Shown here piece by piece: positions 35,089-47,643 of a stretch of 64,000 nt of DNA (the stretch's first letter is position 1; each line of letters begins with the position of its first letter). The notes under the pieces were generated by a model. That model searched no databases. It was not told the origin of the DNA and saw only the letters and a list, made by a program, of their open reading frames with translations. Source of the stretch: Rhodospirillaceae bacterium (GTDB lineage: Bacteria > Pseudomonadota > Alphaproteobacteria > Rhodospirillales > JABHCV01); NCBI GenBank assembly GCA_014382375.1, contig JACNJU010000065.1, positions 1 through 64,000 of the forward strand. Direction: 5' to 3'. The translations under genes were made by a program, and so were the position numbers.

Positions 35089-36294
35089 TTACATGGAAGC
35101 TCGTTTTGGTTCCGTATCCATACTCTTGCCTTCAAAGATCGGAATGAAACGGCTGATTATGTAATACGTCACAAAGGGCGCGACCATGATGATCCCGGCC
35201 GTCAGCAACCCTTCCTTGGCAAAAAATTCAAACTCGTAATCAACGAAACCACGTTCGGATTTTGAAATCAACTGACCGCCGACAACAACGTTGAAACGCA
35301 TGACCAGCACCTGAAAGACCAGCATCAGGCTGCCCAGGTTGCCCAGATAAAGCAGGGCCTTATCCTTGATATCCAGTAGCGAGGCGATGCCAAGCACCAG
35401 CAACGGTCCCAGCGACAGAATACCCATCTGGCCAAGCACATAAGAGTTATACAATGGCCCCATCAGCAGCGGCTTGATAACGGCCCAGTGGGCGCCTTGC
35501 TCGTAACCGACAAAGGCGATTTCCAGAACTTCCAGCGCGTAGTCCAGAATGAACGCCATCCACAAGGTGATGATGAACTTCTTGATCAGGGCGTAATCAT
35601 AGCCTTGTCCGCGCCGCCACATGATGAAGCTGTACATGAGAAACATCATGGCGATCCCGCTGACAATGGCCGATGACAGGAAAATAAACGGCTGCAGCGC
35701 CGTCGCCCACCAGGCGACCGCCTTCACCGAACCGAACACAAAGCCCACATAACCATGCAGCAAACAGGCCCAGGGAATACCGATGCCGGCCAGGAACTTG
35801 GCTAGTTTTTTATCGAAATGCGCCGATTCGGGATTGTAGGTGGTAATGCCCAGGCACAGGATCTTCCAGAAGATCGCCATGTTTCCGACGGTTTCGTTGG
35901 CTTTTTCGATGAACACCTTTCGGTAAATAACCCAGATTTCTATCATCAGAAGAACCAGATAACTTGAATACACGTAGCCGAAAATACTCATCGCCGATGT
36001 TGTGTGCGGTGTTGTGTATATCTGGTATGCCCGTTGTGGCTGGCCCAGATGAACCAGCAGGGGCATGGCCGCGAACAGACCAAAGCTAAACGCCGCAACA
36101 AGCGCAAAATTGGCAATCGGCTTGAACTCCTTGACCCCGAAGACGTGATACATGGAAGACAGAACAAAGGCACCCGCCACCAACCCGGTAATGTAGGGGT
36201 AGATGACAATCATGATCGACCAGGTGACATGGGCATTATTGGGAAAGATGTAATTGACCAGGGCTCCCCCTGGCAGTCCTATGGCTTCCATCAC
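35089..36294 (-). CDS. NrfD/PsrC/DsrP-type quinone-interacting membrane protein
   Basis: A 401-residue membrane protein with nine or ten helices. The YITGLVAGAFVLSSMYHVFG opening and LLVHLGQPQRAYQIY (conserved His and Gln near the quinone site) mark the NrfD family. Size and pairing with a Tat-exported ferredoxin resemble DsrP/DsrO. It should exchange electrons between the quinone pool and the ferredoxin encoded just upstream; its ATG region overlaps the ferredoxin stop (36291-36294). Confidence 0.87.
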   Translation of the reverse strand: MMEAIGLPGGALVNYIFPNNAHVTWSIMIVIYPYITGLVAGAFVLSSMYHVFGVKEFKPIANFALVAAFSFGLFAAMPLLVHLGQPQRAYQIYTTPHTTSAMSIFGYVYSSYLVLLMIEIWVIYRKVFIEKANETVGNMAIFWKILCLGITTYNPESAHFDKKLAKFLAGIGIPWACLLHGYVGFVFGSVKAVAWWATALQPFIFLSSAIVSGIAMMFLMYSFIMWRRGQGYDYALIKKFIITLWMAFILDYALEVLEIAFVGYEQGAHWAVIKPLLMGPLYNSYVLGQMGILSLGPLLVLGIASLLDIKDKALLYLGNLGSLMLVFQVLVMRFNVVVGGQLISKSERGFVDYEFEFFAKEGLLTAGIIMVAPFVTYYIISRFIPIFEGKSMDTEPKRASM

Positions 36295-37067
36295 ACAACC
36301 TCCCTTGGCAAGCCGATGTAGAAGCAGGTCGGATCGGTATGCATTTCAGGCTTCAAAACCATCCATTGGTCGGCTTCAAAGAGTTTCGAGACTTCACTGT
36401 CGATGTCATTGAGATCGCCAAACAACCGGGCCTTTTGCGGGCAAACGGTGACACAGGCAGGCAGCAGGCCCTTTTTCACCCGGTGATAGCACCAGGTGCA
36501 TTTATCAGATTTATGTTCGACGGGATTGATAAAGCGTGCCGCATAAGGACAGGCCTGGACGCAATAACCACAAGCCATGCAGTAATCCCGGTCAACCAGC
36601 ACGAACCCTTCCGGTGATTTAAAAGTCGCACCGACCGGGCAGACCTGAACACAGGGCGGGTTGTGACAGTGATTGCACATTTTGGGGACCGTCCGGCTAA
36701 GCTTAATGTTATCCCGGAACCGTTTGTTGAGCTGTTCAAAACCCTCAATCGCGCCCTTCGGCGAGTCGACATAGACGCCTTCTTCGCGGACCACATAGCG
36801 TTCGACCCAGGTGCGAAAATAATCCGTCGGCACACTGTTTTCACGCTTGCAGGCGCGCACACAGTTTCCGCAACCGATACACTTGCCGACATCGATGATG
36901 TAGGCATACTTGTGATCGGCATCATCCGCACGTTCAGTGCCACCGGTTTCCGGCCCGTGGGCCATCACCCCAGGCCCGAAAACCATCAGCACGGTTGCCG
37001 TTGCCGTCCCTTCGAGCAGACGCACCAGGAATTCCCGCCGGGAGTCAGGCATTTTCGAATTTTCCAT
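36291..37067 (-). CDS. Tat-exported four-cluster ferredoxin (DsrO/NrfC-like)
   Basis: A 258-residue periplasmic iron-sulfur protein. The twin-arginine signal is SRREFLVRLLEG at residues 9-20. Four clusters are implied by CIGCGNCVRAC, CNHCHNPPCVQVCP, CMACGYCVQACP and CTWCYHRVKKGLLPACVTVCP. It would bridge the NrfD-like membrane protein and the multihaem cytochrome encoded upstream. Start 37067 has AAAGGGAA ahead. No molybdenum or other catalytic subunit accompanies it. Confidence 0.9.
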   Translation of the reverse strand: MENSKMPDSRREFLVRLLEGTATATVLMVFGPGVMAHGPETGGTERADDADHKYAYIIDVGKCIGCGNCVRACKRENSVPTDYFRTWVERYVVREEGVYVDSPKGAIEGFEQLNKRFRDNIKLSRTVPKMCNHCHNPPCVQVCPVGATFKSPEGFVLVDRDYCMACGYCVQACPYAARFINPVEHKSDKCTWCYHRVKKGLLPACVTVCPQKARLFGDLNDIDSEVSKLFEADQWMVLKPEMHTDPTCFYIGLPREVV

Positions 37068-37109
37068 ATCGATTATTCCCTTTGCATCTTTTATGTGCTT
37101 TTGCATGGC

Positions 37110-37589
37110 CTAAGGTGTCGGATCATGCGGTGTGTGACAGGCGGTACAAATCATGTCGGGTTCAATTTCCTGATGTTCCTCGATCTTTTCCTTATCAAAC
37201 TGAGGGAAATTTGCAGGCTTGCTTACCTGCGCGTCATGACAATTCAGGCATTGCCAGCTTGAAGCGTCATCAACCACCGCATCCCCTATTTTTTCGCCTT
37301 CCTTGACATGGTCGGCAAGCGCCCCGTGGCATGATTCGCACGACAACGCCTGATGCCTGAATTCGGCAAGTTCCTGGTTTACCTCCTCGTGGCAGGTGAC
37401 GCAGGACTGATTGCCGCCATAAGCGGCCTCATAACTTGAATTGAGCGCCAGTGCGTCGCCACGGTACCAGTCCTTGTAATTCCAGCTTGATGGCGTCACC
37501 ACTTCCTTGATAACAAGGAAAGCGAAAAGAGCACCGACAAGGACCGCCACGAGTCGAACAATGTGAGCTTTGGGGCCTGGTAGCGACAT
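37110..37589 (-). CDS. Membrane-anchored tetraheme cytochrome c
   Basis: A 159-residue protein with an N-terminal helix (residues 10-30) likely retained as an anchor, then four CxxCH motifs: CVTCH, CESCH, CLNCH and CTACH. Spacing suggests a small NrfB/DsrJ-like electron-transfer cytochrome rather than an enzyme. The 37619 codon upstream is an alternative start; 37589 gives a cleaner signal-anchor. It lies between the class I cytochrome and the Tat ferredoxin. Confidence 0.85.
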   Translation of the reverse strand: MSLPGPKAHIVRLVAVLVGALFAFLVIKEVVTPSSWNYKDWYRGDALALNSSYEAAYGGNQSCVTCHEEVNQELAEFRHQALSCESCHGALADHVKEGEKIGDAVVDDASSWQCLNCHDAQVSKPANFPQFDKEKIEEHQEIEPDMICTACHTPHDPTP

Positions 37590-37628
37590 GGTTTTCTTCT
37601 CCCGGAAAAGCCGGTCCAAACAACAGTC

Positions 37629-38003
37629 TTACTTAAGGGTTTGCATGTAGGCGACAATGAGGGCGCGCTCGTCCTCTTTCTTCAGCTTGTAAGCCATTGT
37701 TTTGGCGCCAACGAATTTCTTCGGATTAGCCAGAAACTGGTCCATGTTCTGGGCATCCCAAACCACGTCAGAACCCTTTAAACCTTTATATTTAGCGAAA
37801 TCTGTCGATCCTGCCTTGCGACCGATAATGCCGGCCAGTGAAGGACCGTTCTTGTGCTTTCCAGCCTCTGTAGAGTGACAACTGCCACATCTTTTCTTGA
37901 AAAGTTTTTCACCCTCCTCTGCGTCGGCAAGGGCAATGGTAGAACTGGAAAAAAATGCCAGAACAAATAACCCGGATAGAATCGTCAGCCATGATTTATG
38001 CAT
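37629..38003 (-). CDS. Class I cytochrome c (c2/c550-like)
   Basis: A 124-residue periplasmic cytochrome: signal peptide (1-26, ending ALA), haem site CGSCHSTEAGKHKNGPSL, and axial Met in the GAKTMAYKL segment, the layout of mitochondrial-type cytochrome c. AGGAG lies eight bases ahead of ATG 38003. It heads the leftward five-gene operon, downstream of the FNR/FixK box at 38081. It could link this operon to bc1, ACIII or an oxidase. Confidence 0.92.
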   Translation of the reverse strand: MHKSWLTILSGLFVLAFFSSSTIALADAEEGEKLFKKRCGSCHSTEAGKHKNGPSLAGIIGRKAGSTDFAKYKGLKGSDVVWDAQNMDQFLANPKKFVGAKTMAYKLKKEDERALIVAYMQTLK

Positions 38004-38053
38004 TGGGCGGCTCCTAAAGATCAATCACGAAAAAACTTACAAACGATAACGCT

Positions 38054-38138: not shown

Positions 38139-38546
38139 TCAGGGGCTTGTTCCTTCGGCCTTTTCTTTGCGACCAAGCCACGGCATCAGCGCCGCCGCCG
38201 CAACGACATTTGTCGCCAGCGGCACCTTGTTGAGGTCACAGACTCTGTAGAAAGGAGAAATATCCGGCTGCCCCTCACCTGTGGCAAGCGGATCACGCAG
38301 AAAAAAGACCGCCCGGATAACCCCGGTCGTGCAAATCAACCCGCACAGATGTACTTCTGCCCCCTGCGAGATTGAATGAAGTGCGGAAACTTCCAGGCCC
38401 AGTTCCTTTTCAATAAGTGCGCCGGTTTCCTTCGTCGATAACAGGCGGTAGGATTCGAAAATTGGCCGATTGGCCTTGACCAGCTTGACCAGTTGATTTT
38501 CCATCCCCTCGTGGGCGATCAGAATCAGGGATTTAGCCGTCGTCAT
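38139..38546 (-). CDS. Methylglyoxal-synthase-like protein
   Basis: A 135-residue MGS-fold protein. SLILIAHEGMENQLV, the LSTKETGALI phosphate loop, FFLRDPL and VPLATNVVAAAAL follow the order of methylglyoxal synthase, which turns dihydroxyacetone phosphate into methylglyoxal. Compared with the E. coli enzyme as I remember it, the catalytic Asp 71 position is Glu and the His 98 position is Gly, while Asp 91 and Asp 101 are kept. Activity is therefore uncertain. Start 38546 is chosen over an in-frame ATG at 38651 that adds a non-family extension. It is divergent from an MFS gene. Confidence 0.72.
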   Translation of the reverse strand: MTTAKSLILIAHEGMENQLVKLVKANRPIFESYRLLSTKETGALIEKELGLEVSALHSISQGAEVHLCGLICTTGVIRAVFFLRDPLATGEGQPDISPFYRVCDLNKVPLATNVVAAAALMPWLGRKEKAEGTSP

Positions 38547-38681
38547 GGGATGGTCCCACAGTTCACAATTATTGTTACCAATACGAAAAATCCATTTTAT
38601 TGAAGGCTGTATTCTACTAAAAGGGTGCAAACTTTCCTTGATTATAGTCAAAGTTCCGCCTTAAACATTTCTGGACCCCCC

Positions 38682-39863
38682 ATGCTAATATCCCGCGATC
38701 ATCGCAACGTCGCCGTTCTTGCCCTTTGTCAGGCGCTGTTCATAACCGGCCAGTCGATGCTGTTTATTCTCGCAGGTCTTGTCGGCGCCAATCTAACCGA
38801 AGAAAAGGCCCTGGCAACTTTGCCCATTTCGGTGATCATTATCGCCACCACCCTGACAACCATCCCCGCCTCGCTGTTGATGAAGCGCATTGGTCGCAAG
38901 CCGGGTTTTATGATTGGCGCAACATTTGGCGTGATTGGCGCGCTTATTGCCTCTTATGGTATTCAACAGGGGGATTTCTGGATATTTGTCCTGGGCACAG
39001 GGACCATCGGCACCTATGGCGGCTTCGCCCAATACTACCGTTTCGCTGCCGCCGATGTGGCCGAGTCCAATTTCAAGGGCAAGGCCATCTCGCTTGTCAT
39101 TTCAGGCGGCATCGTCGCCGCTTTCTCTGGCCCGCTTTTGACTAATTATACCTTTGATATCAATGTCGTACCATTTCTTGGTTCTTTTGTGACCGTTGCC
39201 ATACTGGCGGCAACGGCAATTCTGATGTTGTCCCTGATTGACATCCCCCGCCCCGATGTTGCCGAGCGCGCCTCAAGTGGGCGGCCGTTGATCGAAATCG
39301 CCCGCAATCCGGAACTGCTCGCCGCCATCTTCGTCGGCATGATCGGCTATAGCGTCATGAGCTTGCTGATGACGGCGACGCCGCTTGCCATGATCGCGCA
39401 CGGCTATATGGTTCACGACGCTTCGTTCGTCATCCAGTGGCATTTGATCGGAATGTTCGCGCCAGCCTTTTTCACAGGATCGCTGATCGTCCGCTTTGGG
39501 GTGCGAAAGGTCATGTTCTCGGGTACGGTATTACTCACTGGGGCCATCATCGCCGCCCTTGTGGGCGAAACTGTGGCCCACTTCTGGGTGGCGTTGTTCG
39601 CCCTTGGCCTGGGTTGGAATTTCACCTTCATCGGCGCTTCAACCCTGCTGACCGAAACCTACCATCCCGAAGAGCGGGCCAAGGTCCAGGCCCTGAACGA
39701 CTTCATGGTTTTTGGAACCGTCGCCCTGGCTTCGCTGACCTCGGGCACGATATTGCACTTCTTTGATTGGCGCACGGTCAACTTGGCGGCCATCCCGCTC
39801 ATCACCATGGCCGCAGTGGCGATTGTCTTCCTGATTATCCGGAATAAACGAAGTATAACCTAG
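38682..39863 (+). CDS. MFS transporter
   Basis: A 393-residue, twelve-helix major facilitator. After the first helices comes the loop motif MKRIGRKPGFMIG, the usual MFS A-motif region. The group resembles YnfM/NarK-unlike small drug or sugar exporters; substrate is not readable. The end (LIIRNKRSIT) overlaps the convergent VOC gene by 29 bases. ATG 38682 is preferred to an upstream GTG at 38625. Confidence 0.88.
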   Translation: MLISRDHRNVAVLALCQALFITGQSMLFILAGLVGANLTEEKALATLPISVIIIATTLTTIPASLLMKRIGRKPGFMIGATFGVIGALIASYGIQQGDFWIFVLGTGTIGTYGGFAQYYRFAAADVAESNFKGKAISLVISGGIVAAFSGPLLTNYTFDINVVPFLGSFVTVAILAATAILMLSLIDIPRPDVAERASSGRPLIEIARNPELLAAIFVGMIGYSVMSLLMTATPLAMIAHGYMVHDASFVIQWHLIGMFAPAFFTGSLIVRFGVRKVMFSGTVLLTGAIIAALVGETVAHFWVALFALGLGWNFTFIGASTLLTETYHPEERAKVQALNDFMVFGTVALASLTSGTILHFFDWRTVNLAAIPLITMAAVAIVFLIIRNKRSIT

Positions 39864-40593
39864 CGCCGTTGGCGTACTCTGGCTGCACGGACAGGCCCGG
39901 GTCGTCCTTAGTGTATGAAATTCCGGCGTCCTCAAAGAACGCCGCAGTGGCTGCAAGATTGCCCACCTCGATGCCAAGACCGCAAAGTCCCGGCTCATTG
40001 GCATCTTGGGTGAGACGGACTCTCTGTCTGACGAAGTCCGCTCCCAACACCTGCTCATAGGCGACTGTGGCCGCAGCCACGTCCGCCACAGCGATGCTCA
40101 TCCAGGCGATGCCGCGGGCGCCATTGGCATGGATCAGCCATTCGGGGCGACGCATCAGTTCCGGGGTCAGGTGCCGACAAAAAAACCCCGACAACCCCGG
40201 CAATGTCCCTGGCGGTGGATGGAGCAGCCTGAAGCGCGGCTCGACGGTGCCTTCGGGTAATTCCAGCAGCCGTTTCAGGTCTTGCGGTTGGCCGCCCAGT
40301 TTCTCCGCCAGCGCCTCAAGTTCGGAACTGGCGAAAGCCATGCCGAGCAAGCCCTCGCCATGACTTTGCAGAAATGTATCAAGATTATTGGTGAACTGGC
40401 TGGCATCGACGATACCCAGCAGCTCAAGATAATCGGTGGCGAACATGATGCAGTAATTGGCCGTACCCCAGCCGATATGCTTGCCACGCGGGCAGGTGGA
40501 AAAGCCAAGCCGCTGCCAGTCAAGCCGCGCCGCCTCAAGATCGGCAACCCCGACAAGGGCGTGATCGAAACCGTCGTTTAGGCCGTGGGGCAC
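39835..40593 (-). CDS. VOC-fold (glyoxalase-like) protein
   Basis: A 252-residue protein made of two vicinal-oxygen-chelate halves (about residues 5-120 and 150-250): FDHALVGVADLEAARLDWQRLGF opens the first, and IAWMSIAVADVAAATVAYEQVLG the second. It belongs to the PF13468-like glyoxalase group, and substrate is unknown. I start at GTG 40593, two bases after the LsrF-like stop, with GGAAATAGG ahead. It is the last gene of the mtnP operon and could act on a small aldehyde made there (inference). Confidence 0.75.
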   Translation of the reverse strand: MPHGLNDGFDHALVGVADLEAARLDWQRLGFSTCPRGKHIGWGTANYCIMFATDYLELLGIVDASQFTNNLDTFLQSHGEGLLGMAFASSELEALAEKLGGQPQDLKRLLELPEGTVEPRFRLLHPPPGTLPGLSGFFCRHLTPELMRRPEWLIHANGARGIAWMSIAVADVAAATVAYEQVLGADFVRQRVRLTQDANEPGLCGLGIEVGNLAATAAFFEDAGISYTKDDPGLSVQPEYANGARLYFVYSG

Positions 40594-40594
40594 C

Positions 40595-41521
40595 CTATTT
40601 CCGTCGTTTGGCTCTGGCCGTTTGCCTTTTGCTCTTCTTCTTTTCTTCGGCCAACAGGGTCTGATACAGGTCCAGGGCTTTCTTGGGACGCATATTTTGA
40701 TGAACAACCGCACGAACCGCCTGGATCATGGCCACTGGGCTGTCGGCCTGGAAGATATTGCGGCCCATATCGACACCTGCCGCGCCCTGGTCGATAGCCT
40801 TGTAAGCCATGGTCAGTGCCTCAAGTTCCGGTAATTTTTGGCCACCGGCAATGACAATGGGAACCGGACAGCTGGCGCAAACATTTTCGAAGCCTTTGTC
40901 GAAGTAATAACTCTTGACGTAATGAGCTCCCAGTTCGGCGGCGATACGGGTGGCCAGCAGGAAATAACGTTGATCGCGCTTCATGTCTGTGCCAACGCCG
41001 GTGACGGCCATGGTCGGGATGCCGTAACCATTGCCGCTGTCGATCAACTTGATCAAATTGGCGATGGATTTGTGCTCGTATTCAGCGCCGATGTAGATTT
41101 GGGTGGTGATGGCGGCAACGTTGAGGCGGATGGCATCGTCTATATCAACGGCGATGGTTTCATTAGACAACTCGCTCAAGATGCTTTGACCACCCGAACA
41201 GCGCAAAACTACCGGCTTGTTGATAGACGCCGGCACGATGGACCGCAAAGCGCCGCGCGTGCACATCAAAACGTCTGCATGCTGCATCAGGGGGACAATC
41301 GTCAGGTCCATACGTTCAAGGCCAGAGGTCGGACCCTGGAAGTAGCCATGGTCGAAAGCCAGCATCACGGTGCGCCCGCTTTCGGGGTTGAAAATACGGC
41401 CCAGCCGGTTCTGCATACCCCAATCCAGGGCGCCCGCCCCCTTGACATGAAATGGTTTGTTTTCCTGTGGGATGCCGATGCCGAAATCCTTGCCTTCTTT
41501 GATATTGTCCTTGTCAGCCAT
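40595..41521 (-). CDS. lsrF: LsrF-type class I aldolase/thiolase (DhnA family)
   Basis: A 308-residue protein very similar in layout to E. coli LsrF, the autoinducer-2 enzyme that splits phospho-HPD with CoA to DHAP and acetyl-CoA: shared opening [39 protein letters not shown], and the Schiff-base lysine K203 in [10 protein letters not shown]. No other lsr gene is in the window. Instead it lies between the aldolase/dehydrogenase fusion and the VOC gene, behind mtnP and mtnA, so a role on a deoxy-ketose phosphate is a reasonable alternative. Confidence 0.83.
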
Positions 41522-41547
41522 ATTTATTCTCCTAAACTCAAAAAAAA

Positions 41548-43572
41548 TTATCTCAGCGATGCCTCGATATTGCCGCCATCAACGGTCAGGGTCGCAGCAG
41601 TCGTCGAGGGTGATAACGCCAAATGCAAAAACGCCCGGGCAACATCAAGGGCGCTCACCTCGCGGCCCAACAGATTGCCGGACATGTAATCCTTTTCACT
41701 TAACTCCCGGGCCTTGGAGCGTGCCGCAATCATATCGTCGGACAGCAGCCCGGAACGGATACGGTCAGCGTTGACGGCGTTGCTGCGGATGCCATCGGCC
41801 CCGTGATCAAGGGCATATTGCTTCATCAGAAACAATGTCGCCGCCTTGGGCAGGCCGTAGGGACCGAAATCTTTACCCGGATTGAGCGCCTGTTTGGAGG
41901 TGTTAAACAACAGGCAGCCCCCGGTGCCTTGCGCCTTCATGACCTTGACAGCCGCCTGGGCTACCTTTTGATGGCCCCAGAAATTCAGCTCGAAGCTTTG
42001 CCGCAGCACCGCCTCCTCAACGTCGCCAATACGCCCCTGCCAGGCGGCACCGGCATTGGAAACCACAATATCAATACCGCCAAAAGCCCTGGTTACCCTT
42101 GCCAAGGCGGCCTCGACCGCATCCCCATCGGTGACATCACATGCCAGGCCCAGGCCTGCGAATTCGGCTGCCGCTTTTTCGGCATCCTCACCATCAAGAT
42201 CAAGGACCGCCACCGCCGCCCCAACGGCCGCGAACAGGCGCGCCGTAGCAAGTCCAATGCCCGAAGCAGCCCCGGTTACCACCGCTACCTGCCCGACAAG
42301 CGGTTTTTCGTCTTGCGATGGCAGCTTGGCTTGTTCAGGGGCCCAGTATTCAATATCGAACAGGTCAGACTGGCCCGCGCCTTCGAAATCAGCCAGGCCT
42401 TCCGCCGTCATTACCACCCCCGCCGTGCATTCTGCCAGATCGGCGGCGACGACGGCCTCCGCAGCTGATCGACCAAGCCCGAACAAGCCCAGTCCCGGAA
42501 CCAGAATGACACGGGGTTTGTTATCAAGCATGACTTGTGAGCCATCACTGTAGCTCTCGAAATAGGCCTGGTACCGGTTTTCATATGCCTTCATGGCCGC
42601 CCTCGCCGCCTGGGCGAAAGCCTCAAGATTTCCGGCTTCGGGGGCCGGCACGATCAAGGGACGGGGTTTGATGCGAATAACATGATCCGGCGTCACATTC
42701 CCGGCGTTGGCGTAACGTTCGACATCGGCCCCGTTGACGAAGGTCATAACATCCGGGCCATCGCGAAATTCCAGAATGAAATGTTTGAAGGTTCCGGTTT
42801 CTTCATCAGGCAGGGCACACAAGCCGCGCAGGATTGGCGCTACCTCACTGACGGGCGCCAATTTAGCCGGGATTGTTGCCACCTCAAAGGCACGATTTGC
42901 AAAGGTGGCCAAATATTCTTCTGCCACACAGACCAGATCAATCATGCGCGTGTAGGCCTGTTGGGCGGTTTCGCCAAAGGTAAACAGGCCATGGCGCGGT
43001 ATCAGGATGCCCTGTTCACCGTCACCGGCATGCACAATGGCCTTTGCCAGGGCGAATCCGGACATGGCGTAGGGCGCAACGGCGACCTTGTCGCCAAACA
43101 CCTGTGCGCTTAAGTCCTCGCCGTCCGACCGGTTGGTTAAGCTAAGGACGGCGTTGGCGTGGCTGTGAAAGACAAACTTATGAGGCAGGAAGGCATGAAC
43201 AAGGGTTTCAACAGAGGCCGTGGGCTGGCTTGCATCCATCGTCGCCGCCTTCATAGCGGTTGTCATTTCGGCGTCGGACAGGGTGTCCAGCCCGGCCAGG
43301 TCGCGCAACGGCTGAAGTCGCAATGCCGCAAATCCCTGCGCCCCTATGGCCGCCATATCGTAGCCGCTTGCCTTGACGTAAAGCACTTCCGTATCGCGGC
43401 CATGGATATCCTTCAGGGACGTCTTGACCGATGTGTTGCCGCCGCCGTGCAGAACCAGTGCCGGATCGCCGCCCAACAGGCGCGTGGCATAGACGCACAG
43501 GGCCAGATCGGCGTCCCCCCTGGCATCTTTTATCGCCGCTTTGGCGTCTTTTTCAGACCAGTGGTTTTTCAT
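41548..43572 (-). CDS. Class II aldolase fused to short-chain dehydrogenase
   Basis: A 674-residue bifunctional protein. Residues 1-420 form a class II (zinc) aldolase/adducin domain: [10 protein letters not shown] at 43-52, metal His 136 and 138 in FHSHANA, and His 194 in RHGLFTF. Residues 426-674 form an SDR with TGAASGIG (433-440), Ser 559, Tyr 572 and Lys 576. Fusions of this type include rhamnulose-1-phosphate aldolase/lactaldehyde dehydrogenases, but no rhamnose gene is nearby. Between mtnA/PilZ and lsrF, it may cleave methylthioribulose-1-phosphate or 5-deoxyribulose-1-phosphate to DHAP and an aldehyde, then oxidise or reduce the aldehyde. Confidence 0.85.
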
Positions 43573-43880
43573 TAATCTTTCTCGAACATGGATTTCAAGT
43601 GTTTGGCCAGACGAAGGCGTTCTTCTTCAACCGGATCGAACCTGACGGCAAAGCTGTCGTTGCTGGTCCTGACAACGTGGCCGGTCATCTCGCCAATGGT
43701 TTCGATGTGCATATGGACGAAGGCATCATTGCTAAGATGATTTTCGGCATGGATTGAAACACCGCCTTGGGAAATATCAGACGTTTCACCGACAACCACT
43801 TCGCCATCAATTTCAATACGGACACTTTTGTGCAGCTCGTGGCGCGGGTAACGCCTTTTTTCTATATGATCGTCGCTCAT
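43572..43880 (-). CDS. PilZ domain protein
   Basis: A 102-residue single-domain c-di-GMP-binding protein. The RxxxR motif is RRYPR (R9, R13) and the DxSxxG motif is DISQGG (D35, S37, G40), both intact. It has no output domain. It shares four bases with the mtnA stop and one base with the aldolase start, so it is firmly inside the mtnP-mtnA operon, an unexpected place for a second-messenger receptor. Confidence 0.9.
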   Translation of the reverse strand: MSDDHIEKRRYPRHELHKSVRIEIDGEVVVGETSDISQGGVSIHAENHLSNDAFVHMHIETIGEMTGHVVRTSNDSFAVRFDPVEEERLRLAKHLKSMFEKD

Positions 43881-44971
43881 TGATGCTCCGGATACAGCGC
43901 CGCCAGCCCTTCCTCGGATGCTTCGGCGACGCCGCGCTCTGTAATCAGGCCGGTGACCAACCGGGCCGGGGTGACATCGAAGGCGAAATTGGCGGCCGGG
44001 CTGTCTTTTGGCGAGATTGTCACCGTTTCAATGCGGCCATCATCGCTCAGGCCGACCAGTCGGGTAACTTCGCCGGGGTCGCGCTCCTCGATAGGCACAT
44101 CGCGAACCCCGTCCTTGATCGTCCAGTCAATGGTCGGGCCGGGCAGACCGACATAGAACGGCACGTCATTATCAAATGCCGCCAACGCTTTAAGATAGGT
44201 GCCGATCTTGTTGCAGACATCGCCCGCCGCCGTTGTCCGGTCGGTGCCGGTGATCACCACGTCGACCATCCCGTGCTGCATCAGGTGGCCGCCGACGTTA
44301 TCAACGATCAGCGTATGGGGAACGCCGTGCTGGCCCAGTTCCCAGCAGGTAAGCGACGCGCCCTGATTGCGTGGCCGGGTTTCATCAACCCAGATATGAA
44401 CCGGAATTCCGGCGTCATGGGCCTTGTAGACCGGGGCCAGTGCGGTGCCCCAGTCAACCGTCGCCAGCCAACCGGCGTTGCAATGGGTCAGCACATTGAT
44501 CCGTTCGGGCTTGCCCTTGTCGTTCCAGATTTTCTCAATGACACCCCGACCATGCTCGCCGAGGGACGAGCAGATCTCGACATCCTGATCACAGATTTCG
44601 GCGGCCCGGGCGTAGGCCGCGGCCTGTCGCTGGTCCGGCGGCAATGATGAAAGCAGACCCTTCAGGTCATCCAGCGCCCAACGCAGGTTGACCGCCGTTG
44701 GGCGGGTCGCGTAGAGCACCTTGTAGGCATTTTCAAGGCCCGCGTCGGAGGCATCATCGCGCATAGCAAGGGCCATCCCGTAAGCCGCCGTCGCCCCGAT
44801 CAGCGGCGCGCCGCGGACCTGCATGTCGAAGATCGCCCTTTCCGCGTCTGCCAGGGTATCCAGGCGGGCGACAATGTATTCGTGCGGCAAGCGGGTCTGG
44901 TCGATGATCTCGACACTTTCGCCGTTATCGCCAAGCCAGATGGTACGAGTCGGTTTGCCGTTGACGATCAT
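43877..44971 (-). CDS. mtnA: S-methyl-5-thioribose-1-phosphate isomerase
   Basis: Isomerises 5-methylthioribose-1-phosphate to the ribulose form; some relatives also handle 5-deoxyribose-1-phosphate. The 364-residue protein has VRGAPLIG (52-59), the catalytic cysteine C164 in LTHCNAGWLAT and the catalytic D244 in GTDRTTAAGDVCNKIGTY. Start 44971 overlaps the mtnP stop (ATGA) and its own stop overlaps PilZ. Later methionine-salvage genes (mtnB, mtnC, mtnD, mtnW) are not in the window. Confidence 0.95.
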   Translation of the reverse strand: MIVNGKPTRTIWLGDNGESVEIIDQTRLPHEYIVARLDTLADAERAIFDMQVRGAPLIGATAAYGMALAMRDDASDAGLENAYKVLYATRPTAVNLRWALDDLKGLLSSLPPDQRQAAAYARAAEICDQDVEICSSLGEHGRGVIEKIWNDKGKPERINVLTHCNAGWLATVDWGTALAPVYKAHDAGIPVHIWVDETRPRNQGASLTCWELGQHGVPHTLIVDNVGGHLMQHGMVDVVITGTDRTTAAGDVCNKIGTYLKALAAFDNDVPFYVGLPGPTIDWTIKDGVRDVPIEERDPGEVTRLVGLSDDGRIETVTISPKDSPAANFAFDVTPARLVTGLITERGVAEASEEGLAALYPEHQ

Positions 44972-45855
44972 CCCTTCAACACCCGCCCTGCCACCGCGTC
45001 GAGCTTTTCGACCATCGCCGGGTCGCGGGCCTCGGGGGCGGTGATGATGGCGCACTCAAGGGCCGTATGGCAGCCTGATGAGCAACGATCTGTTCGACCA
45101 CTTAAAGAGGGTGCTACCTGTTTGACCAGCGAGCGGCCCTTGTCGGCGTTATCCAGCAACACCTTGATGATGGCGTCGACGCTGACGTGATCATGGTCCG
45201 GGTGCCAGCAGTCGAAATCGGTGACCATGGCGACGGTCGCGTAGCACATCTCTGCCTCCCGCGCCAGTTTGGCCTCCGGCATGTTGGTCATGCCGATAAC
45301 ATCGCAGCCCCACGAGCGATAAAGTTCGGATTCGGCGAGGGTCGAAAACTGCGGCCCTTCCATGGCGAGGTACGTGCCGCCGCGCTGGTAGGGAATATCC
45401 AGTTGCTTGATCGCCACTTCCAGGGCGTCGCCAAGCCGCCCGCAAACCGGGTGGCCGAGGCCGACATGGGCGACCAGACCGGTGGAGAAGAAGCTTTTTG
45501 CCCTATCGATGGTGCGGTCGATAAACTGATCGGCGATAACAAAATGGCCCGGCGGCAATTCCGCTTTCAGGGAACCGCAGGCGCTGACCGAGATGATTTC
45601 AGTAACGCCGACCCGTTTCAGGGCGTCAATATTGGCGCGGAAGTTCAATTCCGCCGGTGGAATGCGGTGGCCGCGGCCATGGCGCGGCAGAAAAACCATC
45701 TTCTGGCCGTCCAGTTCGCCCATCAACAACGCGTCGGAGGGTTCGCCAAAGGGTGAGGAAACCTTCTCCCAGCGGGTGTTTTCCAGCCCTTCAATATCGT
45801 AAATCCCGCTGCCACCAATGACGCCAATAACTGTGGGCGTTCCCGGTTCCGACAT
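44968..45855 (-). CDS. mtnP: S-methyl-5'-thioadenosine phosphorylase
   Basis: Cleaves 5'-methylthioadenosine to adenine and 5-methylthioribose-1-phosphate. The 295-residue protein has the phosphate-binding GGSGIYDIEGL and PRHGRGHRIPP segments, the EGPQFSTLAES substrate motif and NMPEAKLAREAEMCY, all typical of MTAP. Start 45855 (with GGGGGAA ahead) is chosen; 45867 is an in-frame alternative. It heads the operon mtnP-mtnA-PilZ-aldolase/SDR-lsrF-VOC and is divergent from two hotdog genes. Confidence 0.95.
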   Translation of the reverse strand: MSEPGTPTVIGVIGGSGIYDIEGLENTRWEKVSSPFGEPSDALLMGELDGQKMVFLPRHGRGHRIPPAELNFRANIDALKRVGVTEIISVSACGSLKAELPPGHFVIADQFIDRTIDRAKSFFSTGLVAHVGLGHPVCGRLGDALEVAIKQLDIPYQRGGTYLAMEGPQFSTLAESELYRSWGCDVIGMTNMPEAKLAREAEMCYATVAMVTDFDCWHPDHDHVSVDAIIKVLLDNADKGRSLVKQVAPSLSGRTDRCSSGCHTALECAIITAPEARDPAMVEKLDAVAGRVLKG

Positions 45856-46003: not shown

Positions 46004-46459
46004 ATGCCCGAAACCGCCGATCTGAAACAACTGGCTGATATGTTCTCGCAAATTCCCCATTGCCGTGAAATGGGAATCGAAATCACCGCCCTGGCGACAG
46101 GCAGGACATCCATGCGCCTTGACTATCATGAGAGGCTGGCCGGTAACCCGGAAACCGGCGTCGTTCATGGCGGCGTGATTTCGACACTTCTGGATACCGT
46201 CGCGGGACTGACGGCGATGTCTGCGGTTTCTCCGACAACACCGGTTGCGACCCTTGATCTGCGCATTGATTACCTGAAACCGGCCCGCCCCGGCGATGCC
46301 ATTTTTGCCGATGCCGACTGTTTCCGCCTCAGCAGTTCCGTCGCCTTCGTGCGCGCCACCGCTCATCACGGCGATAACACCGACCCCATAGCCCACTGCA
46401 TCGCCACCTTCATGCTCAATGCCGCAGGCTTCACCTCTGCCGGGCAAGGGACAAGTTGA
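46004..46459 (+). CDS. Hotdog-fold acyl-CoA thioesterase, PaaI-like
   Basis: A 151-residue single hotdog domain. The GVVHGGVISTLLDTVAG segment carries the catalytic region and DLRIDYLKPARPGD is the central strand motif of PaaI-type thioesterases. It is followed after two bases by a paralogous hotdog gene, so they may form a heteromer. Substrate unknown. Confidence 0.87.
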   Translation: MPETADLKQLADMFSQIPHCREMGIEITALATGRTSMRLDYHERLAGNPETGVVHGGVISTLLDTVAGLTAMSAVSPTTPVATLDLRIDYLKPARPGDAIFADADCFRLSSSVAFVRATAHHGDNTDPIAHCIATFMLNAAGFTSAGQGTS

Positions 46460-46461
46460 GC

Positions 46462-46887
46462 ATGCTTAAAGATATCCAAAGTCTTAAGGATAAGGGCGAT
46501 TATTCATCAATAAGCAATCTTATTCCCTATACCCGTGTGATTGGCCTTCAGTGCGCGGTTGAAGACGGTGCCATGGTGACACGTTTGCGCCACCAGGACA
46601 GCAACATCGGCAATTATCAAATGGCGGTTCTGCACGGCGGCACAGTGGCGGCCCTTTTGGAACATGCGGCGATTTTCCAGTTACTATTTGAACTGGATAT
46701 CAAGGCGATCCCGCGCATTATCAATATATCCGTCGATTATCTGCGTCCGTGCCGGGCCATGGACACACAGGCCAGCGCCGTCCTGGTTAAACAGGGCCAG
46801 CGCATTGCCAATGTCCGGGTTCAGGCCTGGCAGAGCGACCCGGCAAAGCCGGTTGCCACGGCGCACGCCCATTTCCTGCTCTCTTAA
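46462..46887 (+). CDS. Hotdog-fold thioesterase paralogue
   Basis: A 141-residue hotdog protein with AVLHGGTVAALLEHAA and NISVDYLRPCRAMD in the same order as its upstream neighbour, but more diverged around the helix. ATG 46462 is used, not the TTG at 46456 that overlaps the preceding stop. The pair is likely co-translated and ends 12 bases before the FKBP-rhodanese gene. Confidence 0.85.
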   Translation: MLKDIQSLKDKGDYSSISNLIPYTRVIGLQCAVEDGAMVTRLRHQDSNIGNYQMAVLHGGTVAALLEHAAIFQLLFELDIKAIPRIINISVDYLRPCRAMDTQASAVLVKQGQRIANVRVQAWQSDPAKPVATAHAHFLLS

Positions 46888-46899
46888 GAAAGAAAGACT

Positions 46900-47643
46900 A
46901 TGAAAACTTTTAATAAAACCGCTTTTTTCGCCATCATTCTTCTTCTCATCCCACTGGCCGTACGGGCTGGCGAGGAAGAAATGATAATTACCGATCAGGT
47001 CGTCGGCAGCGGCGGTGAGGCGAGCAATCTGAGCAAGGTTACGGTCAACTATACGGGTTGGCTGATGGATGGCACCCAGTTCGATTCCAGTATCGGCAGG
47101 GAACCGTTCGTCTTCACCCTTGGCGCTGGCATGGTCATCCCCGGTTGGGATATGGGGGTCAAGGGTATGAAAGTTGGCGGCAAGCGCGAGCTTATTATTC
47201 CGCCGCATCTGGCTTACGGAAAGCGCGGCGCCGGAAGTGTTATTCCGCCGGGCTCGAAACTGCGATTTGAAGTCGAACTGCTGGCCGTGGCGGCACCGAC
47301 ATTTAACAACATCGACAATGCAGAGCTAAAAGCATTGCGCGCCAGGGGGGTCAAGCTGATCGACGTTCGCCACCCCGAAGAATGGCAGGAAACAGGTGTT
47401 GTTGAGGGTTCAATCCTGATTGAATCGTTCAAAAAATCAGGACGCCTGCGCCGCGAATTCATCGAGGAGCTGGCCAAAACCGTCAAAAAAGACGAACCGG
47501 TGATGCTGATCTGCCGGGTCGGAAACCGCACGGCCATGCTGGCCGAAGGTTTAAGTGACCGCTTTGGCTACAGCAACATTTACAACGTCACAAACGGCAT
47601 CGAGAACTGGATCAAGGAAGGCAACGCCGTCGTCAGGCCCTGA
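46900..47643 (+). CDS. Exported FKBP-type prolyl isomerase fused to a rhodanese domain
   Basis: A 247-residue fusion. Residues 1-22 are a signal peptide (ending VRA). Residues 30-131 form an FKBP peptidyl-prolyl isomerase (VTVNYTGWLMDGTQFDSS, then VIPGWDMGVKGMKVGGKRELIIPP). Residues 138-247 form a rhodanese domain with LIDVRHPEEW and the active-site loop CRVGNRT with Cys 205. The periplasm is the expected site. Folding catalysis plus persulfide transfer on one chain suggests a sulfur-redox or outer-membrane cytochrome maturation role, but that is inference. The gene ends at the inverted-repeat element. Confidence 0.88.
   Translation: MKTFNKTAFFAIILLLIPLAVRAGEEEMIITDQVVGSGGEASNLSKVTVNYTGWLMDGTQFDSSIGREPFVFTLGAGMVIPGWDMGVKGMKVGGKRELIIPPHLAYGKRGAGSVIPPGSKLRFEVELLAVAAPTFNNIDNAELKALRARGVKLIDVRHPEEWQETGVVEGSILIESFKKSGRLRREFIEELAKTVKKDEPVMLICRVGNRTAMLAEGLSDRFGYSNIYNVTNGIENWIKEGNAVVRP

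Follow-up and report, generated by a model that had tools for sequence, protein, structure and literature searches.

How does a bacterium that encodes the first two steps of 5'-deoxynucleoside salvage dispose of the sugar phosphate that they yield? 5'-Methylthioadenosine (MTA) and 5'-deoxyadenosine are by-products of S-adenosylmethionine chemistry in nearly all cells and inhibit the enzymes that form them; classical salvage depends on oxygen, and the dihydroxyacetone phosphate (DHAP) shunt releases a reactive aldehyde. Here, we address this question for an operon in a 64,000-nucleotide stretch of DNA (positions 1 to 64,000 of contig JACNJU010000065.1, assembly GCA_014382375.1, Rhodospirillaceae bacterium; hereafter the window), in which six genes on the minus strand at 39835-45855 encode, in this order, MtnP, MtnA, a PilZ-domain protein, a class II aldolase fused to a short-chain dehydrogenase (SDR), an LsrF-type thiolase and a VOC protein (Table 1). 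Very probably, the operon leads from 5'-deoxynucleosides to DHAP. We propose that it does so by a thiolytic form of the DHAP shunt, in which LsrF would serve a purpose other than quorum sensing and, having taken over the cleavage, would have left the aldolase domain of the partner fusion to drift; to this reading, which is built on sequence comparison, we give a probability of slightly below one half.

The operon arrangement is well beyond chance, as the complete six-gene block is found again in the congener G001 and mtnP/mtnA adjoining a fusion gene, the neighbourhood that the preliminary description had proposed to look for, are seen in dozens of genomes across many families. Gene calls, curated models and Pfam confirm the six identities and the common strand given in that description, and the aldolase histidines, the SDR triad and the LsrF lysine that it named match exactly, to which E122 is now added as completing the class II aldolase site. 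Its statement that nearly each junction overlaps needs correction: three of the five do (mtnP/mtnA and mtnA/PilZ by 4 bp each, PilZ/fusion by 1 bp), and gaps of 26 bp and 1 bp separate the fusion from LsrF and LsrF from VOC, respectively. The mtnA start corresponds to Met29 of a long open reading frame extending to 45055 and matches the starts of homologues. In G001, G004 and G005, too, a PilZ gene separates mtnA from the fusion, and the VOC gene recurs adjoining fusions and adjoining LsrF in other genomes; the VOC protein had no match in a sequence search of the PDB.

Among the later salvage enzymes searched for in the host assembly (3.3 Mb, 99.4% complete), the fusion and its operon partners alone remain to take the MtnA product. 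MtnA is single-copy and located in this operon, and the genome holds zero matches to PF03079, the family of acireductone dioxygenase (MtnD). Two proteins carry the class II aldolase domain (PF00596), namely the fusion, which belongs to PRK08324, and a single-domain protein of the PRK07490 type (391 bits, cut-off 260). MtnB is not in the host genome, the PRK07490-type protein scoring 31 bits against TIGR03328 (cut-off 137), nor is a single-domain aldolase of the Ald2/DrdA type. A RuBisCO match outside the window (G000:C48, L219) lies beside genes that we name by eye as phosphoribulokinase, transketolase, class II fructose-bisphosphate aldolase and Rpe. Because the first three of these adjoin it, the protein looks like a Calvin-cycle enzyme and not MtnW, and the host may be autotrophic. 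A complete mtnBCD/W methionine salvage elsewhere in the genome, the opposing case raised in the preliminary description, was rejected, since acireductone dioxygenase and MtnB are absent and RuBisCO stands in a Calvin-cycle-type cluster. The route to DHAP fed by MtnP and MtnA without later methionine salvage genes, first suggested from the window, is thus supported genome-wide.

Known systems offer partial parallels. The DHAP shunt operates as MtnP-MtnA-Ald2 in Rhodospirillum rubrum and Rhodopseudomonas palustris and through MtnN and MtnK-MtnA-Ald2 in Escherichia coli ATCC 25922; as in our operon, MtnP and MtnA supply a pentulose-1-phosphate from which DHAP is finally formed, and both MTA and 5'-deoxyadenosine are handled (PMC10986504, PMC12632272). 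Unlike the shunt, however, the present genome is without Ald2, an aldolase/SDR fusion takes its place, LsrF is part of the operon, and an acyl-CoA is predicted as second product in place of an aldehyde. The DrdK-DrdI-DrdA 5-deoxyribose salvage of Bacillus thuringiensis likewise converts 5-deoxyribulose-1-phosphate to DHAP, but is entered by a kinase, uses a single-domain Mn aldolase and releases acetaldehyde (PMC6079011). In the open-licence literature we found no description of LsrF with 5-deoxyribose salvage, or of mtnA or MTA with an aldolase plus a short-chain dehydrogenase.

What does LsrF contribute? The thiolase of the operon is about 69% identical to E. coli LsrF, has K203 conserved and passes the cut-off of the LsrF equivalog PRK08227 (499 > 297). 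E. coli LsrF takes phosphorylated autoinducer-2 (AI-2), after isomerisation, together with CoA to DHAP and acetyl-CoA (PMC7828210, PMC8016206). By the name of PRK08227, its substrate is 3-hydroxy-5-phosphonooxypentane-2,4-dione, which is 5-deoxyribulose-1-phosphate, the expected MtnA product, with the C4 alcohol oxidised to a ketone. Because the LsrF substrate is the 4-keto form of the MtnA product, we favour oxidation before cleavage over an SDR that handles a released aldehyde. Judged by orthology, MtnP and MtnA would yield 5-deoxyribulose-1-phosphate from 5'-deoxyadenosine and its 5-methylthio analogue from MTA. The NAD-type SDR domain would then oxidise the C4 hydroxyl to a 2,4-diketone, which for 5-deoxyribulose-1-phosphate is the very dione known as the LsrF substrate. 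Finally, LsrF would use CoA to cleave between C3 and C4, a chemistry known from the E. coli enzyme, to give DHAP and acetyl-CoA or, from MTA, methylthioacetyl-CoA as the second product. The aldehyde of the classical shunt would never be released and two carbons would be retained as a thioester, whereas relatives that lack LsrF would rely on the fusion's own aldolase domain for the cleavage. We hold this order of reactions, oxidation of C4 by the SDR followed by thiolysis of the diketone by LsrF, at roughly even odds. It would account for LsrF without AI-2 genes, for the pairing of LsrF with the fusion, for the conserved SDR and for the drifting aldolase part.

The features of the SDR half are compatible with such an oxidation. 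The second strand ends in Asp458, the usual NAD mark of SDRs; given this residue and the lack of NADH-driven activity in RhaEW (rhamnulose-1-phosphate aldolase/lactaldehyde dehydrogenase), aldehyde reduction was rejected as the main SDR direction. An AlphaFold2 model of the fusion (pLDDT 90, pTM 0.90) yields fold matches of its halves to a Thermoplasma class II aldolase domain (3m4r) and to many SDRs, mostly secondary-alcohol dehydrogenases, which include L-2-keto-3-deoxyfuconate 4-dehydrogenase, the producer of a 2,4-diketo sugar acid. The proposed order of reactions also fits two outside facts, the NAD+ requirement of RhaEW and the oxidation of C4 before cleavage in L-fucose and L-rhamnose degradation. 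RhaEW, which shares the two-domain architecture, forms no DHAP without NAD+ and shows no NADH-driven activity (PMC3870299). In the 2,4-diketo route of L-fucose and L-rhamnose degradation, which relies on an SDR-type 4-dehydrogenase and a FAH-family hydrolase, C4 is oxidised and the 2,4-diketone is then cleaved in place of a retro-aldol step; that route differs in acting on sugar acids, not sugar phosphates, and in using hydrolysis, not thiolysis, by an unrelated cleaving enzyme (PMC13406643).

The distribution of LsrF ties it to one kind of fusion. In a comparison set of nearly 500 genomes, mostly alphaproteobacterial, LsrF is confined to a subset of the fusion-bearing genomes, and the sole exception carries a true lsr operon. 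At the level of the order, 10 of 59 relatives have a close LsrF and nine of these ten also have the fusion (Fisher P = 0.013); in the tenth, G038, LsrF is surrounded by lsrK, lsrR, lsrG and transporter genes, which makes this a real AI-2 locus. In a class sample of 385 genomes, the fusion accompanies LsrF in all five other LsrF genomes, which represent three genera, against 69/384 overall (P = 1.7e-4). After a first tree had grouped the LsrF-associated fusions, LsrF was looked for by clade, and it was found in 8/8 genomes of the LsrF fusion clade, five of them new to the analysis, and in 1/48 genomes of the rest of the tree, where eight known negatives are included. On the tree of 152 sequences, the presence of LsrF needs three changes, compared with about 21 when shuffled. 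As LsrF tracks one subset of fusions almost perfectly, it is probably not a mere extra step. The preliminary description had cast it as an additional carbon-processing enzyme, and this part of its account probably needs revision, given also that the 4-keto form of the MtnA product is the LsrF substrate; the DHAP route fed by MtnP and MtnA is supported.

Individual loci add detail to this distribution, in which most LsrF-bearing relatives are represented by metagenome assemblies. The single LsrF in the rest of the tree (G462) is found 0.4 kb downstream of another copy of the fusion (L222) and groups, on long branches, with the lsr-operon LsrF of G038; it may represent an independent recruitment. 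In G021 and G041, LsrF lies away from the fusion, head to head with a VOC gene resembling that of the window. At three loci of one genus (L177, L179, L180) LsrF adjoins a SUF-type iron-sulphur operon and, at two of the three, also a gene that by eye encodes an HpcH/CitE-type lyase. In one LsrF-bearing group (L087, L091, L094, L096, L099, L108), the mtnA-fusion pair has as its neighbour a kinase gene that reads by eye as PfkB type, and the stretch yielded no mtnP, so that the pathway may there be entered by a kinase.

The fusions of LsrF genomes differ from the others mainly in their aldolase part. Among the 40 most different alignment columns between LsrF and non-LsrF genomes, 35 fall in the aldolase part and four in the SDR. 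Where LsrF is missing, and likewise in the sugar-operon outgroup, nearly all fusions have C65, W71, Q107, P171 and N342; most LsrF genomes have lost these residues, with replacements that vary by lineage. At least three of seven marker positions are changed in 21/22 LsrF rows, compared with a maximum of two in any non-LsrF row. Within groups, the aldolase part diverges by a median of 0.53 for fusions of LsrF genomes versus 0.39 for the others, whereas the SDR part diverges equally in both (0.31), and the SDR residues are unchanged in LsrF genomes.

Comparison within the window's own family suggests how the present fusion came about. MtnP and MtnA of G002, G004 and G005, in which LsrF was not detected, are 79-89% identical to those of the window, but the fusion is only 55-59% identical, while the fusions of these three genomes are 73-82% identical among themselves. 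The SDR half of the window is closest to that of G018, from another family (78%, versus 71-72% for G004 and G005). In the congener G003 (assembly 67% complete) VOC follows the fusion directly, with no LsrF between them, and the aldolase part has the ancestral residues. The fusion of the window was likely acquired from elsewhere by gene displacement. Displacement as the full explanation of the poor match was rejected by domain comparison, as beside it the aldolase half also evolves faster.

Several observations count against a thiolytic shunt. The aldolase metal ligands and E122 are conserved in 22/22 LsrF genomes, which argues that the aldolase domain retains some function and led us to reject a dead domain; the conserved metal site is the main point that the mechanism leaves over. 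It is mostly the aldolase part that holds the LsrF-linked clade together, and a tree of the SDR alone scatters the LsrF rows with weak support (six changes); the sequences therefore do not separate shared ancestry from repeated drift, and few independent events are involved. In G183, LsrF lies apart from the fusion, which looks ancestral there. LsrG-like proteins with 43% identity occur in G018 and G039, many of the compared genomes are incomplete assemblies, and the match to L-2-keto-3-deoxyfuconate 4-dehydrogenase is one among very many SDR fold matches.

Could the fusion instead, as the preliminary description supposed, perform the classical shunt on one polypeptide? The aldolase domain would then release DHAP and (methylthio)acetaldehyde, the SDR would oxidise the aldehyde to the acid as proposed for RhaEW, and LsrF would clear a 4-keto side product of the SDR or have some other role. 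The metal site is intact in every sequence, fusions without LsrF must cleave unaided, RhaEW yields DHAP and lactate (PMC3870299), and Ald2 and DrdA perform the retro-aldol step (PMC10986504, PMC6079011). Nonetheless, such a scheme explains neither the restriction of LsrF to fusions whose aldolase part is altered nor the loss of aldolase residues invariant elsewhere, and RhaEW needs NAD+ before any DHAP appears. We regard it as the main rival, possible but on the doubtful side.

It is improbable that the fusion acts on rhamnulose- or fuculose-1-phosphate as an enzyme of the RhaEW type, with mtnP and mtnA as chance neighbours, even if it belongs to the same superfamily and the NCBI group name says only "bifunctional aldolase/short-chain dehydrogenase". 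The window fusion fails both RhaEW models (TIGR02632/PRK08324.1-3; 441 < 568 and 416 < 634), which a control fusion of the rhamnose-operon type (L040) passes with 963 and 1069, and on this ground the rhamnose enzyme was rejected. E122 of the window fusion is Asp in two rhamnose-operon fusions, and the setting is an mtn operon, not a rhamnose locus (the genome searches did not extend to rhamnose isomerase). The linkage to mtnA/mtnP recurs, with mtnA or mtnP within the fetched surrounding stretch, many of these stretches being short, for 60 of 130 fusion sequences, and G018 holds both kinds of fusion, L040 in an ABC-transporter operon and L003 adjoining mtnA and mtnP. By contrast, none of the 22 fusions of one Rhizobiales and Rhodobacterales clade, mostly in ABC-transporter sugar operons, has mtnA or mtnP in the fetched stretch. 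Fusions L097-L124 (Rhizobiales, Rhodobacterales) form a sister clade of 47-50% identity that is found mainly in sugar operons with ABC transporters, has no mtn linkage and by tree position is not RhaEW-like; fusions from rhamnose-type operons form an outgroup at a large distance (29-33% identity).

Even less probable is an LsrF that degrades AI-2 (as phosphorylated 4,5-dihydroxypentane-2,3-dione) and is in the operon by chance. Its identity to E. coli LsrF and its equivalog score would agree with this, and true lsr operons exist in the order, as in G038. However, the host genome lacks LsrG and LsrK, the best matches to the latter being generic kinases of 27-28% identity, while the same searches found both proteins in the G038 control; no lsrK, lsrG or lsr transporter accompanies LsrF in its mtn operon setting. 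In the other fusion-bearing genomes examined, no lsr genes adjoin LsrF except for weak matches to general ABC ATPases. AI-2 degradation was rejected on the absence of LsrK and LsrG; LuxS was not searched for. Least credible of all is a condensing aldolase, such as one joining methylglyoxal and DHAP to 6-deoxy-5-ketofructose-1-phosphate as proposed for archaeal relatives: LsrF shares the fold family of MJ0400 (119 bits) and a methylglyoxal-synthase-like protein is encoded nearby, but that gene is not a regular neighbour outside the family, and this activity was rejected as the ADH-synthase models fail (162 < 299, 180 < 241) where the LsrF equivalog passes.

If the thiolytic shunt is correct, one bacterial group avoids the aldehyde by means of an enzyme so far known from AI-2 breakdown, and the occurrence of orphan LsrF homologues where an lsr operon is missing would be explained. 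The reaction order of the widespread aldolase/SDR fusions, RhaEW included, becomes directly testable with purified proteins.

Table 1. Features of the operon and its surroundings (positions in the window)
Feature	Position	Strand	Evidence and remarks
mtnP, methylthioadenosine phosphorylase	44968..45855	-	ATG at 45855; PRK08931 515 bits (cut-off 437), TIGR01694 302 (275)
mtnA, methylthioribose-1-phosphate isomerase	43877..44971	-	PRK05720 467 bits (271), TIGR00512 402 (279)
PilZ-domain protein	43572..43880	-	PF07238
Class II aldolase/SDR fusion, 674 aa	41548..43572	-	PF00596 + PF13561; PRK08324.1-6 896 bits (639)
Fusion, aldolase part, residues 1-400	42373..43572	-	Metal site H136, H138, H194, E122 kept; C65, W71, Q107, P171, N342 of other fusions replaced
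Fusion, SDR part, residues 425-670	41563..42300	-	GxxxGxG, D458 (NAD type), N506, S559, Y572, K576
LsrF-type thiolase	40595..41521	-	PRK08227 499 bits (297); PDB matches 3gkf/3glc/4p2v; K203 kept
VOC (glyoxalase-like) protein	39835..40593	-	GTG at 40593; PF13468
MFS transporter, convergent to operon	38625..39863	+	PF07690
Methylglyoxal-synthase-like protein	38139..38651	-	PRK05234 passed (87.8 > 84), TIGR00160 failed (87.5 < 146.9)
Electron-transfer module	35089..38024	-	NrfD-type membrane protein, 4Fe-4S ferredoxin subunit, CxxCH-rich protein, small cytochrome c
Hotdog (4HBT) acyl-CoA thioesterase	46004..46459	+	Divergent from mtnP
Hotdog (4HBT) acyl-CoA thioesterase	46456..46887	+	Divergent from mtnP
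FKBP-type isomerase-rhodanese domain fusion	46900..47643	+	

Other genes surround the operon. The MFS transporter is a regular neighbour within the family and a possible candidate carrier of substrate or product. The pair of 4HBT thioesterase genes is also present in G001 and G003 and lies directly downstream of the fusion in G017 (L038), where LsrF was undetected; these enzymes could act on an acyl-CoA product. The methylglyoxal-synthase-like gene is kept near the operon in G001 and G005; the substrate of a bona fide methylglyoxal synthase is DHAP. The isomerase-rhodanese fusion gene is conserved upstream of mtnP in G001, G003, G004 and G005.

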